Of a DNA stretch of 27,320 nt, positions 4,206 to 25,784 are shown piece by piece. Positions within the stretch are counted from its first letter, which is position 1; the number at the start of each line of letters is the position of its first letter. The notes under the pieces are model-generated. The model searched no databases. It saw nothing but the letters and a program-made list of their open reading frames with translations, and had not been told where the DNA came from. The DNA lies in IMG/VR virus record IMGVR_UViG_3300021142_001958, positions 1 through 27,320 of that record; one strand, given 5' to 3'. The translations under genes were made by a program, and so were the position numbers. The DNA comes from a virus.

Positions 4206-4234
4206 AGTATACAACTATTACATACAAAAGTAAA
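4206..4234 (-). promoter_or_regulatory. Sigma70-like promoter for 44-62-regA
   Basis: On the minus strand TTTACT (4234-4229), 17 bases, then TATACT (4211-4206). The spacing is ideal and both hexamers match the sigma70 consensus at 4-5 of 6 positions. A transcript would start near 4199, 27 bases before the gp44 ATG. It lies inside the region also used by HEG1 in the other direction. Confidence 0.55.
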
Positions 4235-4237
4235 TAC

Positions 4238-4287
4238 ACCATCCGCGATACCGTAAATATCCGATGGTTTTAACGTACTAGTGGTAC
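4238..4287 (+). promoter_or_regulatory. Two-hairpin leader of HEG1 (shared with HEG2)
   Basis: Hairpin 1 pairs ACCATC (4238-4243) with GATGGT (4263-4268), with inner GATA (4247-4250) / TATC (4258-4261). Hairpin 2 pairs GTAC (4275-4278) with GTAC (4284-4287), just before the ATG at 4294. The same arrangement, with altered but still paired bases, precedes HEG2 on the minus strand at 23834-23784. Pairing next to the start suggests translational control; the function is inferred. Confidence 0.6.
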
Positions 4288-4293
4288 ATCAAC

Positions 4294-5028
4294 ATGAATA
4301 CTTATTCAAGAAAAAATCCACCAAAAGGATTTTACGTTTATTTCTATCTCCGCGACAAAGATTCCAAAACGGCCACAAAAGGAACTCCATATTACGTGGG
4401 TAAGGGGAGCACAGATAGAGCTTGGGAACCTCATGGAAAAATACCAGTACCGAAAAATAATTCGCTTATATTAATACTACATTCAGAATTATCAGAAACT
4501 TATTCATTTATATTAGAAAGATATTATATAAAATGGTTTGGTAGAAAAGATAATAGAACTGGGATTTTATTAAACAGAACCGATGGCGGTGAAGGAGTAT
4601 CAGGTTTAATTCATTCACAAGAATCCATCCAAAAAAGAATAAACTCGAATACAGGAAAAAAACGTTCGAAACAAGCAAAATTAAACATAAGCAATAGTAG
4701 AAAAGGAGTATCATCGTCGGTTAAAAAAGGAGACGTTAGACTTCAATCTACCAAAGAAAAAATATCCAATAAATGTTTAGAAAGAGTAAAAAACAAATCA
4801 CATAATCTATTAAAACAAAAAGATGGAAGTTCTGTAGCATCTAACTTATCCAAAATAGGACAACACAACTGGCAGAAAACAAAAAATTTGGTTAAATGTT
4901 ACGATAAACAAGGCAATTATATGTTAATAACCACGGACGAATATAGGACACAAACAGGAGATATGCGATTATGGGAATATGTATCCGTGGCTAGTAACGA
5001 AGGAAAACGTAGGAAAAATAATTTATAA
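4294..5028 (+). CDS. Free-standing GIY-YIG homing endonuclease (HEG1)
   Basis: A 244-residue GIY-YIG nuclease. The degenerate GIY motif is FYVYFYL (13-19), the YIG motif is YYVGKG (33-38), and the catalytic-type glutamate is E75 in [14 protein letters not shown]. Residues about 106-140 ([10 protein letters not shown]... [16 protein letters not shown]) are NUMOD3-like DNA-binding repeats. It sits on the opposite strand to the replication genes, between 44 and the dsbA-like gene, and its stop abuts the dsbA-like stop at 5028/5029, a typical intergenic insertion of a mobile endonuclease. About 60% of residues match HEG2 over the nuclease domain by eye. Both HEGs share a late promoter and a hairpin leader. 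It probably cuts related phages lacking the insertion. Confidence 0.88.
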
Positions 5029-10150: not shown

Positions 10151-11871
10151 GCTATAACCTCTGTCATTCTTGTGAAATTCTTTTTCTTTTCAAATTTTAA
10201 AACTCTATCAAATTTATCGCTAGTTCTATCTATCTTATGGGATATGATAAATATTCTCGTATCTTTATCAAAGTCAGACATTAATTCAAGAAAGTTTTCT
10301 ATACTTGTGGAGTCTAAACTACCGTCTAATATCTCATCCATTAATAAAAGATTTGTGTTTACAGAATTTTTCATTTTAGCGACCTGTCTAAAGGCGAACA
10401 ATATAGATAAATCAATTTTGGTTTTTTCACCTTCTGAGAAATTCATATAAGTGAATTCGTCTCTATGTCTACTTTTAATAACCTCTTCAAAATTCTCATT
10501 AATATTGAAATTAACGAAAAAATTGAGTTTTGATAAATAAAGATTAATCAATTTATTTAAAACAGGAAGATACTGTTTAATTATCCTAGTTTTAATACCA
10601 CCGTCTTTCAACAAAGTTGCTGAATATTCATAATAAGACTTTTCATCAGAAATTTTAGATAATGAAGATTCACACTCTTTATAATCTCTCAATAATTTTT
10701 TAAGCTCAACGTCATCATATTCAACATTCTTACTTTTCAAATCATCAATAAATTTAGTTTCTCTTTGTATAGTCTTTTCAATTTCTTTGATAGAAGCGTT
10801 TATCTTGATTATTTCGGATTGATGACTAATGATATTTTTATTGACGCCATCAATGGCTTCCATTCTGGTTTTCAATTTAGTAAACTCTTCTTCTAGTTTA
10901 TCTAAACCGTTTTTAAGATCAATTTCTTTTTTATTCGTAGATTCTAATTTATCTTGTCTAAATCCTGCATCTATTGTTTGTTTACAAGTAGGGCAAGAAT
11001 CGTTTTTCTCATAGAAAGAGTTTTCATTTCTAATTTTCTTTAGATTATCTTCTATCTTACTTTCTATAGAAATAAAGTTTTTCCGTTTCTTTTCAATAGA
11101 ATCTTTATCTACTATCTTCTTAAACAATGAATCAATGTGCATTTGAATCAATTCACAATCTGATTTCATTACTTCGATTTGATCTTTATTGGTTTGGATT
11201 TCTTGTAATTTCAAACCAACCAATTCATCATTATTTCTTTTTTGATTCCTTATGTTCTCTTTTTGAAGTTTAATTTTTTCCTTTGTCAATTCGAATTTAT
11301 AATTTGAATCTTTCTCTTCATCCTTGAGTTTAGAAATTTTATCTTTCACCAAAAGATTCATAGAAGAAAATATAAGAATATCAAATAGGTCTTCAACGAT
11401 AGTTCTTCTATCAGCAGCAGACATTTGCATAAATGGATTATATCTGGCAGAACCTAATACAACAACATTAACAAATGATTTATAATTCATCCGAAGAATA
11501 TTCTTTTCTAGATGTTCTTGATAATCTCTTGCACTAGCGTCTTGGTTAAGTAATTTACCATCGCAATATATTTCAAAGACGTTTGGCTTCAAACCTCTAA
11601 CGATCTTATAAGATTTACTTCCAATATCAAATTCAATCTCAACGACTAAATTGTTTTTATTGATTGAATTTATAATATTAGGTTTATTAGTTTTTCTAAA
11701 TGGCTTTCCATATAAAGCAAATACGATGGAATCAACTATACAACTGGTTTTTGATGCTCCGTTCTCACCAACACATATATTCCGTCTATGTGAATTAAGA
11801 TTTATCTCTAAGAATGCATTTCCTACTGAGAAAAAATTTTTCATTCTAATTTTTTGAAAAATAATTATCAT
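10147..11871 (-). CDS. 46: Recombination endonuclease subunit gp46 (Rad50/SbcC-like)
   Basis: A 574-residue SMC-type ATPase. The N-terminal P-loop reads GENGASKT, with serine where the consensus GxxxxGKT has glycine. A coiled-coil region of about 250 residues surrounds the zinc hook SCPTCKQ. The ABC signature is NFSEGEKTKIDLS, Walker B is LLLMDEILDGSLD, and the H-loop is FIISHK. With gp47 it resects DNA ends for T4 recombination-dependent replication. The start overlaps the gp47 stop by 4 bases. Confidence 0.95.
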   Translation of the reverse strand: MIIIFQKIRMKNFFSVGNAFLEINLNSHRRNICVGENGASKTSCIVDSIVFALYGKPFRKTNKPNIINSINKNNLVVEIEFDIGSKSYKIVRGLKPNVFEIYCDGKLLNQDASARDYQEHLEKNILRMNYKSFVNVVVLGSARYNPFMQMSAADRRTIVEDLFDILIFSSMNLLVKDKISKLKDEEKDSNYKFELTKEKIKLQKENIRNQKRNNDELVGLKLQEIQTNKDQIEVMKSDCELIQMHIDSLFKKIVDKDSIEKKRKNFISIESKIEDNLKKIRNENSFYEKNDSCPTCKQTIDAGFRQDKLESTNKKEIDLKNGLDKLEEEFTKLKTRMEAIDGVNKNIISHQSEIIKINASIKEIEKTIQRETKFIDDLKSKNVEYDDVELKKLLRDYKECESSLSKISDEKSYYEYSATLLKDGGIKTRIIKQYLPVLNKLINLYLSKLNFFVNFNINENFEEVIKSRHRDEFTYMNFSEGEKTKIDLSILFAFRQVAKMKNSVNTNLLLMDEILDGSLDSTSIENFLELMSDFDKDTRIFIISHKIDRTSDKFDRVLKFEKKKNFTRMTEVIA

Positions 11872-22354: not shown

Positions 22355-23122
22355 ATGGCTAGTATTGTTAATTCTGCTGCGGATACCGCAGAAGTGCCAC
22401 TTCTCAATAAGTCGTGGCTTGCTGGAGCCTTTAGTATCTATTTCGTATTCTATATTTGGGTACGTTGGTATGAAGGTGTTTTTGGTTGGGCTGCTGGACT
22501 TGATTCCTTTGCTCCTGAGTTTGAAACCTATTGGATGAATTTTCTTTACGCGGAGATTGTTCTTGAGGTAACAATTGCCTCAATCCTTTGGGGTTTTATT
22601 TGGAAAACTAGGGATCGTGATTTTTCTGCCCTGACTCCACGTGTCGAACTGCAACGTAATATGACGCATTTAATTTGGTTATTTGCTTATGCAAATGCTA
22701 TTTATTGGGGCGCTTCATATTTCACTGAACAGGACGGTACTTGGCATCAAACCATTGTTCGTGATACTGACTTTACACCAAGTCATATCATTGAATTCTA
22801 CCTCTCTTATCCTATCTACATTATTACTGGATTTGGAGCATTTCTTTATGCTAAAACTAGACTTCCTTTCTTTTCAGAAGGATTGTCTCTTCCTTATCTT
22901 GTAACTGTAGTTGGTCCGTTTATGATCCTTCCAAACGTTGGTCTTAATGAATGGGGACACACCTTCTGGTTTATGGAGGAACTTTTTGTGGCTCCTCTCC
23001 ACCTAGGTTTTGTTGTATTTGGATGGTTAGCACTTGCAATCGGAGGTGTTTTATTACAAGTATTTGACTCCTTTTCAAGACTCATTGGTGAGGAATTATT
23101 ATTTGTAATGAACGATAAGTAA
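22355..23122 (+). CDS. pmoC: Particulate methane monooxygenase subunit C (PmoC)
   Basis: A 255-residue integral membrane protein, the C subunit of pMMO, near the full family length. Several membrane segments are visible (e.g. 22-37, 62-83, 104-123, 145-165, 178-195, 217-236). The copper-C ligands D127, H131 and H144 (EQDGTWHQ ... TPSHIIE) and the copper-D ligands N198, H202 and H216 (GLNEWGHTFW ... APLH) are all present. Sequence such as DSFAPEFETYWMNFLY and HQTIVRDTDFTPSH is PmoC rather than AmoC. The last ~15 residues (IGEELLFVMNDK) differ from the usual ...EAVDxGLIxK ending. G+C in one sampled 60-base line is 43%, against 22% in a line of the neighbouring kinase gene, suggesting host acquisition. 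Preceded by a late promoter, followed by a terminator. Confidence 0.97.
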   Translation: MASIVNSAADTAEVPLLNKSWLAGAFSIYFVFYIWVRWYEGVFGWAAGLDSFAPEFETYWMNFLYAEIVLEVTIASILWGFIWKTRDRDFSALTPRVELQRNMTHLIWLFAYANAIYWGASYFTEQDGTWHQTIVRDTDFTPSHIIEFYLSYPIYIITGFGAFLYAKTRLPFFSEGLSLPYLVTVVGPFMILPNVGLNEWGHTFWFMEELFVAPLHLGFVVFGWLALAIGGVLLQVFDSFSRLIGEELLFVMNDK

Positions 23123-23136
23123 AAACTTATCAAAAC

Positions 23137-23166
23137 AAAAAAGGGAGGAAAAACCTCCCTTTTTTT
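23137..23166. terminator. Bidirectional terminator between pmoC and HEG2
   Basis: AAAAAAGGGAGG (23137-23148), loop AAAAA, CCTCCCTTTTTT (23154-23165): a 12-bp perfect stem with T-run on the plus strand. The minus-strand read likewise ends in T-rich sequence. It lies between the convergent pmoC and HEG2 and would terminate both; HEG2's stop codon overlaps its edge. Confidence 0.85.
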
Positions 23167-23779
23167 ATATTTTATGTTTACAATTATCAAAATGATATCT
23201 TGTCATATTCCCACCTCCACCAGATATTCCACAATGAGGACAAGTAATATTTTTTATATTTCTAGTTTTATATAATCGTCCTTCTTTATATTCTGGTTTC
23301 GAGTCTTCTGGATATATATGATATGATTTTTCATCATCGTGATACCACCGTTTACCTATACAATGTTTTCCTCCAGTATCTTTAAATTTTTGTATAGTAT
23401 CTTCAGTATATACTCCTACTTTTCCTTTGTTCCAAGGAAGTTGTCCTGTTTTCTTGCCCTTATTCCAAGGTGTGTATGGTTTTCCTTTATTCCACGGTGT
23501 TCCACCAGATAGACCTTCACCACCATCTGTCATATTTCTTAGAATGCCTGTGTTGTTATCTTTTCTACCAAACCATCTAATGTAGTATCGTTCTTGAATG
23601 AACGCTTGACATTCGGTTAGGTTCTGTGATATAATAATGTTTCTGTTTAGGTCTTTTGGAACTGGAATATTTCCATGTTTCTGAAATCTTCTTTTTCCAG
23701 AACCTTTACCGACATAATATGGAGTGAAATCTTCTCTTAAATAGAGATAGACATAAAAGTGTGACTGATAAATACTCAT
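23165..23779 (-). CDS. GIY-YIG homing endonuclease with C-terminal zinc finger (HEG2)
   Basis: A 204-residue GIY-YIG nuclease starting at the ATG at 23779, which has AGGAG eight bases upstream; the frame extends to 23821 but without homology. Motifs are YVYLYL, YYVGKG (21-26), catalytic-type E63 in [14 protein letters not shown], and [15 protein letters not shown]. Next come NUMOD3-like repeats of the type PWNKGK (three copies). A C-terminal zinc finger, [12 protein letters not shown]...HFDNC, completes it. The nuclease domain is close to HEG1. It lies convergent with pmoC just past the pmoC stop, and a second pmoC 3' end lies 0.7 kb beyond its promoter, suggesting it homes into the pmoC region. 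Confidence 0.9.
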
Positions 23780-23783
23780 GCTG

Positions 23784-23834
23784 ATACTCCTGTTTAGTAT
23801 TAGAACCCATAGATACGCCAATATCGTGATGGGT
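23784..23834 (-). promoter_or_regulatory. Two-hairpin leader of HEG2
   Basis: Read on the minus strand: outer stem ACCCAT/ATGGGT (23834-23829 with 23810-23805), inner GATA/TATC (23825-23822 with 23815-23812), then a second stem ATACT/AGTAT (23800-23796 with 23788-23784). The AGGAG ribosome site (23791-23787) lies partly in this stem. Same plan as the HEG1 leader, with compensated changes. Likely delays translation. Confidence 0.6.
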
Positions 23835-23851
23835 ATTTTTATTGACTATGG

Positions 23852-23859
23852 TATTTATA
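23852..23859 (-). promoter_or_regulatory. T4-type late promoter for HEG2
   Basis: TATTTATA on the plus strand, i.e. TATAAATA on the minus strand, starting 80 bases upstream of the HEG2 ATG. As for HEG1, the endonuclease appears to be a late gene. Confidence 0.65.
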
Positions 23860-23875
23860 TAATGAGGATTAAATA

Positions 23876-24049
23876 ATGAAAACTATCTTTGAAAAAGAAT
23901 ATTGTGGTGAATCTCTTTCTGATATAGAAAGAGATATTAACGAAGCATTTTCGGATCAATTCAATCCTGTTATGCGTGAGATTCCAGTAGATGATTGGGG
24001 ATTTCCAAAAGGAGACATTAAAGTTACTATTGTGTGGAGTAATGATTAA
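23876..24049 (+). CDS. Small conserved-type phage protein
   Basis: A 57-residue protein (starts MKTIFEKEYCGE). GAGG lies 8 bases upstream. The pattern FEKEYCGESLSDIERDINEAF, then FNPVMREI and KVTIVW, resembles small hypothetical proteins common in T4-like cyanophages as I remember them. Function unknown. First of three overlapping plus-strand small genes between HEG2 and the pmoC remnant; its stop overlaps the next ATG (TAATG). Confidence 0.6.
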   Translation: MKTIFEKEYCGESLSDIERDINEAFSDQFNPVMREIPVDDWGFPKGDIKVTIVWSND

Positions 24050-24258
24050 TGACAAAATATTCTGGAACTAAATGGAATACTGATGAATGTGGTAGGTGTG
24101 GAAAACCACACCATAATTATTCGGGAAAATTTGATAGATTTGGTATAGAATATGTAGTTTGTGGTATAACACATAAACGCATGAATGTTAATCAAACCAC
24201 GGTTCGTGATGTTTTTTATGCAACAAATTGGTATATAGATGGTGATAAGAATGACTGA
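24049..24258 (+). CDS. Small putative zinc-binding protein
   Basis: A 69-residue protein. ECGRCGKPHHNY near the N-terminus and VVCGITHKR further on give C-x-x-C...H and a later C/H that could bind zinc, though a full set of ligands is not certain. GGAG lies 9 bases before the ATG. No family recognised. Overlaps both neighbours. Confidence 0.55.
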   Translation: MTKYSGTKWNTDECGRCGKPHHNYSGKFDRFGIEYVVCGITHKRMNVNQTTVRDVFYATNWYIDGDKND

Positions 24259-24490
24259 ATCCGAACTATTAAAAAAGTATGAGGATGAAGTTAAACAAAT
24301 TCCAGAAATGAGGAATTTAGTTTCCTATAGATGTGAGGATGCTGTAAAAATTATTTCTTTTTTAATTAGTAATTATAATAAATCAGATAATGATTATGTG
24401 TTATTAGGTGTTTGTGTTGCCTTTTTAAAAGGAAGATGTAATCCTGCTATGATTAAAGATATTATTAATGAATGGAAGGAAACTGAATAG
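24251..24490 (+). CDS. Small helical protein of unknown function
   Basis: A 79-residue protein from the ATG at 24251 (MTESELLKKYEDE); a longer frame from 24239 adds four residues but GGTG is placed better for 24251. Mostly helical with a conserved-looking core CEDAVKIISFL. Its stop codon is followed directly by PmoC-like coding sequence from 24498. Its G+C (22% in one sampled line) contrasts with the 43% of the remnant that follows. Confidence 0.5.
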   Translation: MTESELLKKYEDEVKQIPEMRNLVSYRCEDAVKIISFLISNYNKSDNDYVLLGVCVAFLKGRCNPAMIKDIINEWKETE

Positions 24491-24497
24491 GATATCC

Positions 24498-24638
24498 CCT
24501 TTACATTACGGATTTGTGTTCTTCGGATGGTTGGCACTAGCAATTGCAGGAGTTCTTCTCCAAGTGTTTGCCTCATTTGGCAACCTTATTGGCAAAGAAG
24601 TAACTGAAGCAGTAGACAGTGGTCTTATTTCTAAGTAA
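24498..24638 (+). pseudogene. pmoC 3'-end remnant (second, diverged copy)
   Basis: Codons from 24498 read PLHYGFVFFGWLALAIAGVL..., then LIGKEVTEAVDSGLISK and a TAA stop at 24636. This is the C-terminal membrane helix and the canonical tail of PmoC, including the His equivalent to copper-D ligand H216. Over 34 aligned codons with the intact gene, 26 residues are identical but 15 of those 26 codons differ synonymously. No N-terminal part exists. An in-frame ATG at 24468 could give a 56-residue peptide, but its upstream part is not PmoC. A strong terminator follows at once. Confidence 0.9.
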
Positions 24639-24655: not shown

Positions 24656-24680
24656 AAAGGGGGCTTCGGCCCCCTTTTTA
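24656..24680 (+). terminator. Intrinsic terminator after the pmoC remnant
   Basis: AAAGGGGGC (24656-24664), TTCG tetraloop, GCCCCCTTT (24669-24677), followed by TTA. A 9-bp perfect stem with stable UUCG-type loop and T-tail; the original terminator of an ancestral pmoC transcript. Confidence 0.9.
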
Positions 24681-24684
24681 TTGC

Positions 24685-24767: not shown

Positions 24768-25784
24768 ATGTCAAAAAAATACGATTTAATCGTCTATATT
24801 GGACGTTTTCAACCATTTCATAACGCTCATCATGAAATCCTTTGTAGGGCAAAAGCACTTGCGGAAAAAGTAGTGCTCATTATAGGCTCTTCCCAGCAGC
24901 CTAGAACATATAAAAACCCATTTACTGATTATGAACGTAAGATGCTCATGATTGGTGATTGGGAAGTATCTTCTTATTGTGTCAAAGATTGCATGTATAA
25001 TGATCAAGCATGGGCAGTCAGTATACAAGAAGCTGTCGCAAAAGAAGTTTACAATGCGTTTTACTTGCAAGATAATGTTAAAATTGGTATTATCGGACAC
25101 GAAAAAGACCAATCAAGTTTTTATCTTAAAATGTTTCCTCAATGGGATCACATTGATGTAGAATGCATCGAACCGTTACACTCTACTAATATCAGAGATT
25201 TATATTTCCGTAATGATGTTAATATGAATTTTATTAAAGGTGTAGTACCTACAAAAGTTTTTACTTTTTTGAACGAATTCAAAGACAGTGAATCATATAA
25301 ACAAATAGTCAAAGAACGAGAATTTATTGAAGATTATAAGAAACAATACGCTTCATTTCCTTATCCTCCTACATTTGTAACTACTGATGCAGTTGTTATC
25401 CAATCAGGACATGTTTTGATGATCAAACGTAAATCAGAACCTGGTAAAGGATTATGGGCATTACCCGGAGGATTTCTGAACGCTGATACAGACAAAAGTA
25501 TGATCGATTGTTGTATTAGAGAATTGAAGGAGGAAACTGGTATTAAAGTGCCCGTTCCTGTATTGAAAGGAAACATAACAAATTCTAAAGTTTTTGATGC
25601 TATTGGGCGTAGTGCTAGAGGCAGAACAATAACCCATGCATTTAAGATAGTTTTGCCTGATGGAGAACTTCCAAAAGTGAAAGGTTCAGACGATGCGGAA
25701 AAAGCTAAATGGGTTCCTATTTGGGAATTACAATCTGAAGATTGTTTTGAGGATCATTATGATATCATTTCTTATTTCGTTTGA
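24768..25784 (+). CDS. nadM: Bifunctional NMN adenylyltransferase/Nudix hydrolase
   Basis: A 338-residue two-domain protein. The N-terminal nucleotidyltransferase domain has the phosphate loop YIGRFQPFHNAHHE (HxGH-like) and, later, HSTNIRDLY (the ISSTxIR-like motif). It joins NMN to ATP to give NAD. The C-terminal Nudix domain has GLWALPGGFLN followed by RELKEETGI; the core REXXEE is intact, but the first glutamate of the Nudix box is not in the usual place (spacing longer by two). Similar fusions occur in Vibrio phage KVP40-type viruses. Next in the cluster are an RlaP-like gene and nadV. Confidence 0.92.
   Translation: MSKKYDLIVYIGRFQPFHNAHHEILCRAKALAEKVVLIIGSSQQPRTYKNPFTDYERKMLMIGDWEVSSYCVKDCMYNDQAWAVSIQEAVAKEVYNAFYLQDNVKIGIIGHEKDQSSFYLKMFPQWDHIDVECIEPLHSTNIRDLYFRNDVNMNFIKGVVPTKVFTFLNEFKDSESYKQIVKEREFIEDYKKQYASFPYPPTFVTTDAVVIQSGHVLMIKRKSEPGKGLWALPGGFLNADTDKSMIDCCIRELKEETGIKVPVPVLKGNITNSKVFDAIGRSARGRTITHAFKIVLPDGELPKVKGSDDAEKAKWVPIWELQSEDCFEDHYDIISYFV

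Follow-up and report, generated by a model that had tools for sequence, protein, structure and literature searches.

Two matches to the PF04896 (AmoC) profile were found in phage record IMGVR_UViG_3300021142_001958, the 27,320 bases of which were analysed as a whole (the window): one at 22382-23092 (E 2e-121) and one at 24495-24596, with the latter covering profile positions 211-244 of 245. The first lies within an intact pmoC (22355-23122), an open frame of 255 codons encoding a protein of 255 aa. The second identifies 24498-24638 as the final 46 codons of a pmoC gene, as an earlier note on this DNA had described it, and the open frame 24468-24638 likewise matches the profile (E 3e-9). Neither a start codon nor a ribosome-binding site of its own was in evidence for this remnant. 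Situated between the two pmoC 3' ends (after 23122 and before 24496) are HEG2, a homing endonuclease gene convergent to pmoC, and three small genes spanning 23876-24490 (Table 1).

Table 1. Features at the pmoC locus of the window; the terms resident, imported, displaced and passenger follow the reading preferred in the text.
Feature	Position	Strand	Basis
Resident pmoC body, codons 1-213	22355..22993	+	Closest to L008/L007, which have the same flank beyond the remnant
Imported and recoded 3' end of pmoC, from codon 214 through the stop, joined in frame to the body; last residues EELLFVMNDK	22994..23122	+	Outlier tail; lowest median identity of the clade
G+C-rich hairpin and T run (GGGAGG...CCTCCC), terminator-like, between pmoC and convergent HEG2	23141..23167	.	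Read from the sequence
HEG2, predicted free-standing GIY-YIG homing endonuclease, 204 aa from ATG, with C-terminal zinc-finger-like CPHC...H...C motif	23165..23779	-	Invariant residues; PHROG homing endonuclease
HEG2 leader RNA: late-promoter-like TATAAATA, two nested helices with covariation, and a third helix that contains the ribosome-binding site	23774..23864	-	Covariation; cmsearch 90 bits
s1, small phage gene, 57 aa, passenger	23876..24049	+	phrog_11659, E 1.6e-22; relatives in Klebsiella/Salmonella jumbo phages
s2, small ORF, 69 aa, passenger	24049..24258	+	No confident relatives found
s3, small ORF, 83 aa, passenger	24239..24490	+	No relatives found; stop codon 5 nt before the junction
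Right junction	24495..24497	+	Resident pmoC starts again at 24496, 2 nt upstream of the boundary between codons 213 and 214
Displaced resident pmoC 3' end (remnant)	24496..24638	+	PF04896 E 4e-10; 99.3% identity to the in-place pmoC tail of phage L006 over 136 bp
Resident pmoC terminator (AAAGGGGGCTTCGGCCCCCTTTTT)	24656..24682	+	Alike in L007/L008
NMN adenylyltransferase/Nudix gene	24768..25784	+	Follows pmoC immediately in L007/L008/L009, the empty-site reference

The body of the intact gene carries the CuC motif D127-H131-H144 and the CuD ligands N198 and H202, these positions being read from the sequence. The CuD copper ligands described for PmoC, Asn227, His231 and His245 (PMC12576850), map to N198, H202 and H216 of the window protein, and the codons of this site encode part of its best-conserved region. 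With this mapping, the remnant begins at P214, in agreement with the start in the copper-D histidine region noted previously.

Comparison of the remnant to the tail of the intact gene showed 69% DNA identity and agreement at 27 of 34 residues (a count given earlier as 26), while the number of shared codons differing synonymously was again 15, now 15 of 27 (fraction 0.56). Synonymous differences from relatives range from 0.36 to 0.55 for the window body and from 0.54 to 0.76 for the tails, with the exception of the recent match of the remnant to L006 (0.08). The value of 0.56 is thus that of ordinary divergence between phages, and the two tails hence stem from long-separated lineages, as had been proposed. 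The remnant has a median DNA identity to relatives (0.714) that is typical for the clade (others 0.69-0.79), whereas that of the intact tail (0.629) is the clade minimum. The oddness previously attributed to the ending of the intact copy was also evident at the residue level, with Leu217 and Gly230 occurring in none, and Val221 in three, of the 231 other tails compared. The ending EAVDSGLISK of the remnant had been taken as the usual one for PmoC; this holds for the gammaproteobacterial-type clade, in which EAVDxGLI(A/S)K is usual (L006, L010, L016 and, among bacterial-contig loci, L189, with similar endings in L184 and L188), but other pmoC clades end differently. A recoded tail was also considered for L029 and L076 and was dropped, their ending being normal for their own clade. 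No donor of the odd tail with more than 70% DNA identity was found among the 232 tails compared, the nearest being those of L006 (0.695) and the remnant itself (0.686), a small margin.

HEG2 can be assigned to the GIY-YIG family on the basis of invariant motif residues together with weak profile and fold matches. Over 13 relatives, YVY..YVG, R30, E63 and N82 are invariant, so that the GIY-YIG motif and the catalytic Arg, Glu and Asn are present. A Pfam search with HEG2 alone gave no match, and its relatives L020 and L029 match GIY-YIG (E 4e-5 and 0.035) and NUMOD3. A profile search of the PDB returned GIY-YIG proteins as a weak match (E 0.008), and the seven best Foldseek matches were all GIY-YIG, likewise weak (E at least 0.1). 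No relatives of s2 or s3, and no donor of them, were found. Transposon insertion was rejected, there being no transposase among the genes of the insert and no repeat seen at its junctions.

Related phages lacking HEG2, a comparison that the earlier note had called for, were found to exist. In L007, L008 and L009, pmoC is followed by a like terminator and then by the same NMN adenylyltransferase/Nudix gene as in the window, and these were the only relatives found with the same flank beyond the remnant; upstream of pmoC, relatives have little in common with the window. The window body is closest to L008 and L007 (82% DNA identity, synonymous difference 0.36). Its similarity to these phages is 84-91% over codons 197-207 and 60-66% thereafter, the drop lying at about codon 210-213, which is also where the remnant sets in. 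Since the body is nearest to these two phages and similarity is lost only at this point, the imported part looks like the tail only. Furthermore, because the body is closest to L008 and L007 and only L007-L009 have the flank beyond the remnant, body and remnant can be read as one gene; that both belong to a single resident gene is the simplest reading, replacement of most of the gene being less economical. The suggestion that the phage once had a normal pmoC at this position is thereby supported, with the remnant corresponding to the resident tail and its terminator and downstream gene arranged as in the three relatives. The tails of L007 and L008 share only 67% identity with the remnant, and may themselves have been exchanged. 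A search for pmoC in GenBank phages gave no match.

On this reading, the insert extends over 22994-24495 and comprises 1,502 bp (up to 1,504). Its right junction is abrupt and lies 2 nt from the site of the group I intron of L034 and of intron 3 of L020, both of which interrupt the gene precisely at the Ala213/Pro214 boundary. Within a pmoC stretch of ~24 codons at the CuD site, Rfam recognised group I introns in L016 (two), L020 (four), L027, L034 and L042, at six different positions in all, and pmoC of L028, L037 and L044 is broken at the same places as in intron-bearing loci. No group I intron was found in the window, and the intron that protects the gene in collaborative homing thus has no counterpart there. 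The sequence at the proposed homing site is native in L002 and L008 (around GCC followed by CCTTTACATTATGG) and recoded in the window (GCT followed by CCTCTCCACCTAGG). As recoding of the tail lies almost wholly 3' of codon 213/214, and as the remnant is without the 5' half of the site, neither copy would keep the proposed target. Group I introns were also observed elsewhere in pmoC, in L015 and L114. In L020 (1530-2720), four tandem group I introns occur within about 70 coding bases of pmoC, with micro-exons of roughly 18, 21 and 30 nt predicted from the introns.

Exchange of the segment 3' of this site was encountered in other phages. Between the sister phages L006 and L002, pmoC identity is 91-100% up to about codon 205; beyond about codon 212, and as far as the stop, it is 64-82%, and L006 matches the window remnant instead. 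The exchanged 3' end of L006 (8637-8777) is a clean replacement relative to L002, the new tail being 99% identical to the remnant; an exact search of IMG/VR with a stretch of the remnant returned the L006 contig only. This tail swap shows, independently of HEG2, that the part of pmoC lying 3' of the site is mobile between phages.

The layout of the window recurs in L016. There, a pmoC with two introns and a normal tail is followed by a terminator, a different homing gene oriented as in the window, a small ORF and, from about codon 216, a degenerate pmoC tail. The layout probably arose twice, as both the nuclease and the passenger of L016 differ from those of the window. The small ORF of L016 (10162-10404) and a gene of L008 (12409-12651) are 97.5% identical over 243 bp, a match that extends as far as the stop codon. 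These two phages are otherwise distinct, and in L016 this near-identical small gene lies between the homing gene and the displaced tail. Among 59 distinct loci, nine have a homing endonuclease gene within 1 kb behind pmoC, a density about eight times that elsewhere in these loci. In L029, L055, L064, L076 and L077 such a gene lies behind a pmoC that has the consensus site with no intron there. Not every pmoC-adjacent nuclease can therefore cut the site, and those of phages like L029 and L076 must cut elsewhere or not at all.

What can be read from the DNA itself is a single-point insert of 1.5 kb with in-frame closure of pmoC, a displaced native tail that retains its terminator and flank, and a junction near an intron site. 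The arrangement is probably the result of insertion of a 1.5 kb unit, consisting of a recoded pmoC 3' end, terminator, HEG2 and the three small genes, between resident codons 213 and 214, with displacement of the resident tail. HEG2 or an ancestor would have cut the resident pmoC in the CuD-site codons, at or beside codon 213/214. The left end would then have been repaired by copying from a donor phage that had HEG2 just behind its pmoC, and with this copying would have come the donor's recoded 3' end together with its terminator, HEG2 and the small genes beside it. The right side, being without homology, would have been joined illegitimately to the other broken end. Such an insertion is supported by the empty-site relatives, the similarity drop, the contrast between normal remnant and outlier tail, the junction at the intron site, the L016 layout and the density of homing endonuclease genes. 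One-sided repair in T4 and the end product seen in fungal mitochondria may also be counted in its favour by analogy. Counting against it are the negative donor search, the consensus sites beside other homing endonuclease genes and the 67% figure for the L007 and L008 tails.

The earlier note had regarded the remnant as belonging to a second whole pmoC, with an altered copy having replaced all but its 3' end. Its assignment of the odd tail to the HEG2 block is retained, but the remnant reads instead as a resident tail displaced by insertion. Transfer of a complete altered pmoC, together with HEG2 and the small genes, from another phage would fit with both the intact tail and HEG2 being foreign to the flank, with the frequent recombination of phage genes and with the little that relatives share with the window upstream of pmoC. 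It is nevertheless improbable, since the body is closest to the very phages that share the flank, L007 and L008, and similarity drops only at about codon 210-213. Slightly less probable is an assembly chimera, in which the contig would join a phage carrying pmoC, HEG2, s1, s2 and s3 to the pmoC tail and flank of another phage. The near identity of L006 to the remnant is what such a join could produce, and an exact search, which may not have covered records close to the window, found the junction in no second IMG/VR contig. However, the stretch shared with L006 does not reach the junction at 24495/24496, which is 8 nt away from it, and the codons after the junction (CCCCTTTA) are absent from L006; the right flank agrees with L007 and L008, and in L016 the layout recurs with different sequences. 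The L006 tail is, moreover, foreign between two L002-like flanks, which a single wrong join cannot give. Lowest in likelihood is a local duplication of the phage's own pmoC 3' end upon HEG2 insertion, followed by fast divergence of the in-place copy, perhaps because loss of the cut site was favoured by selection. The tails closest to the odd tail are indeed those of L006 and the remnant, by the small margin given above. Against this, identity between the remnant and L006 is still 99.3%, which leaves little time, and the odd tail differs synonymously at more than half of the shared codons and also at invariant residues.

For the preferred insertion of the 1.5 kb unit, the closest described layout is that of the mORF hybrid genes of fungal mitochondria, reported for atp6 of Allomyces macrogynus and for atp6, atp9, cox2 and nad3 of Glomus (PMC3630166). 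As in those genes, an endonuclease ORF accompanies a 3' end, presumably foreign in the window, that is fused in frame to the resident gene; the endonuclease ORF lies between the two 3' ends, and the resident 3' end is found downstream, near to insert-free relatives and differing from the inserted one mostly synonymously. In the atp6 mORF the inserted and resident 3' ends have 63.5% DNA and 91% protein identity (PMC3630166). The window case differs in residing in a phage, in involving an auxiliary metabolic gene and in having a convergent HEG2 with three passengers, and no donor was found for it among the tails compared. The closest phage setting is that of F-CphI beside psbA in cyanophage S-PM2, for which the term 'collaborative homing' is used (Zeng et al. 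2009; PMC6083498). F-CphI and HEG2 are both free-standing homing nucleases encoded next to a host-derived metabolic phage gene, with a site in that gene also used by group I introns. F-CphI, however, has an Endo VII motif and its psbA is protected by an intron, whereas HEG2 is GIY-YIG, with no intron present and with protection presumably provided by the recoded exon. Similarities to the Seg and Mob endonucleases of T4 include a GIY-YIG gene between conserved genes, control by a late promoter and an RNA hairpin and, presumably, co-conversion of flanks; one-sided illegitimate repair of double-strand breaks has been seen in T4 homing, giving non-homologous junctions where one exon is missing (PMC2988022). 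None of the T4 cases in that account has kept a displaced native 3' end alongside a foreign one in its place. Split genes such as Aeh1 nrdA and T4 gene 60 differ in having no restored full-length gene.

Fragmented pmoC in two pieces, with neighbouring genes that come and go, has been described in large freshwater phages (Chen et al. 2020; PMC7674155). Gene and phage group are the same as in the window, and the text of that study mentions no intron or endonuclease and gives no homing explanation. Group I introns may account for these fragmented genes, and the proposed insertion likewise gives a possible reason for the broken pmoC genes described from phages. In the literature searched, outside of which most subscription papers lie, no report of the displaced-tail layout was found for phages or for pmoC, and no paper was found in which 'pmoC' and 'group I intron' occur together. 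If correct, the proposed insertion would extend the 'mobile gene tail' mechanism of fungal mitochondria to viruses and to a gene important in the methane cycle. It also suggests that homing is part of the reason why PmoC C-termini diverge among phages. A broader proposal, for which the case is evenly balanced, is that the CuD codons of phage pmoC are a common landing site, at which unrelated homing nucleases would recurrently bring gene-restoring tails (the window, L016) and group I introns would accumulate, such that selfish elements, and not only selection on methane oxidation, would shape the viral PmoC C-terminus.

The leader RNA of HEG2 belongs to a conserved type that precedes phage homing genes of several GIY-YIG subfamilies and of the HNH type. 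Its conserved features are UCRCG...YCCMA in two nested helices, a third helix in which the ribosome-binding site lies, and TAAATA upstream. Compensatory changes were found for 13 of 15 pairs, with a covariation of 0.746 as opposed to 0.226 for shuffled and at most 0.145 for slid alignments. The window copy had no match in Rfam, and the HEG2 block as a whole gave only sub-threshold Rfam matches, taken as chance. Leader matches numbered 41 in the loci compared, with nine copies in one phage record of 259 kb and one in Pseudoalteromonas phage vB_Psh_XG4. Copies were observed in L004, L016, L020, L027, L029, L043, L055, L064, L076, L087, L098 and others, and at a second position in the window (4209-4299, +). 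The latter belongs to HEG1 (4209-5028, +), a GIY-YIG homing gene related to HEG2 with the same leader type, which lies amid genes on the - strand, upstream of a clamp-loader-like gene. In L016, the displaced pmoC tail is cut short by a second leader copy immediately after it (10478-10567, -; 97% over 67 bp), and this copy is not followed by a homing gene. In L114 (4237-5303), a forward HNH nuclease gene follows pmoC and an opposite-strand leader RNA overlaps the 3' end of the nuclease gene, an arrangement suggestive of the replacement of one homing gene by a different one.
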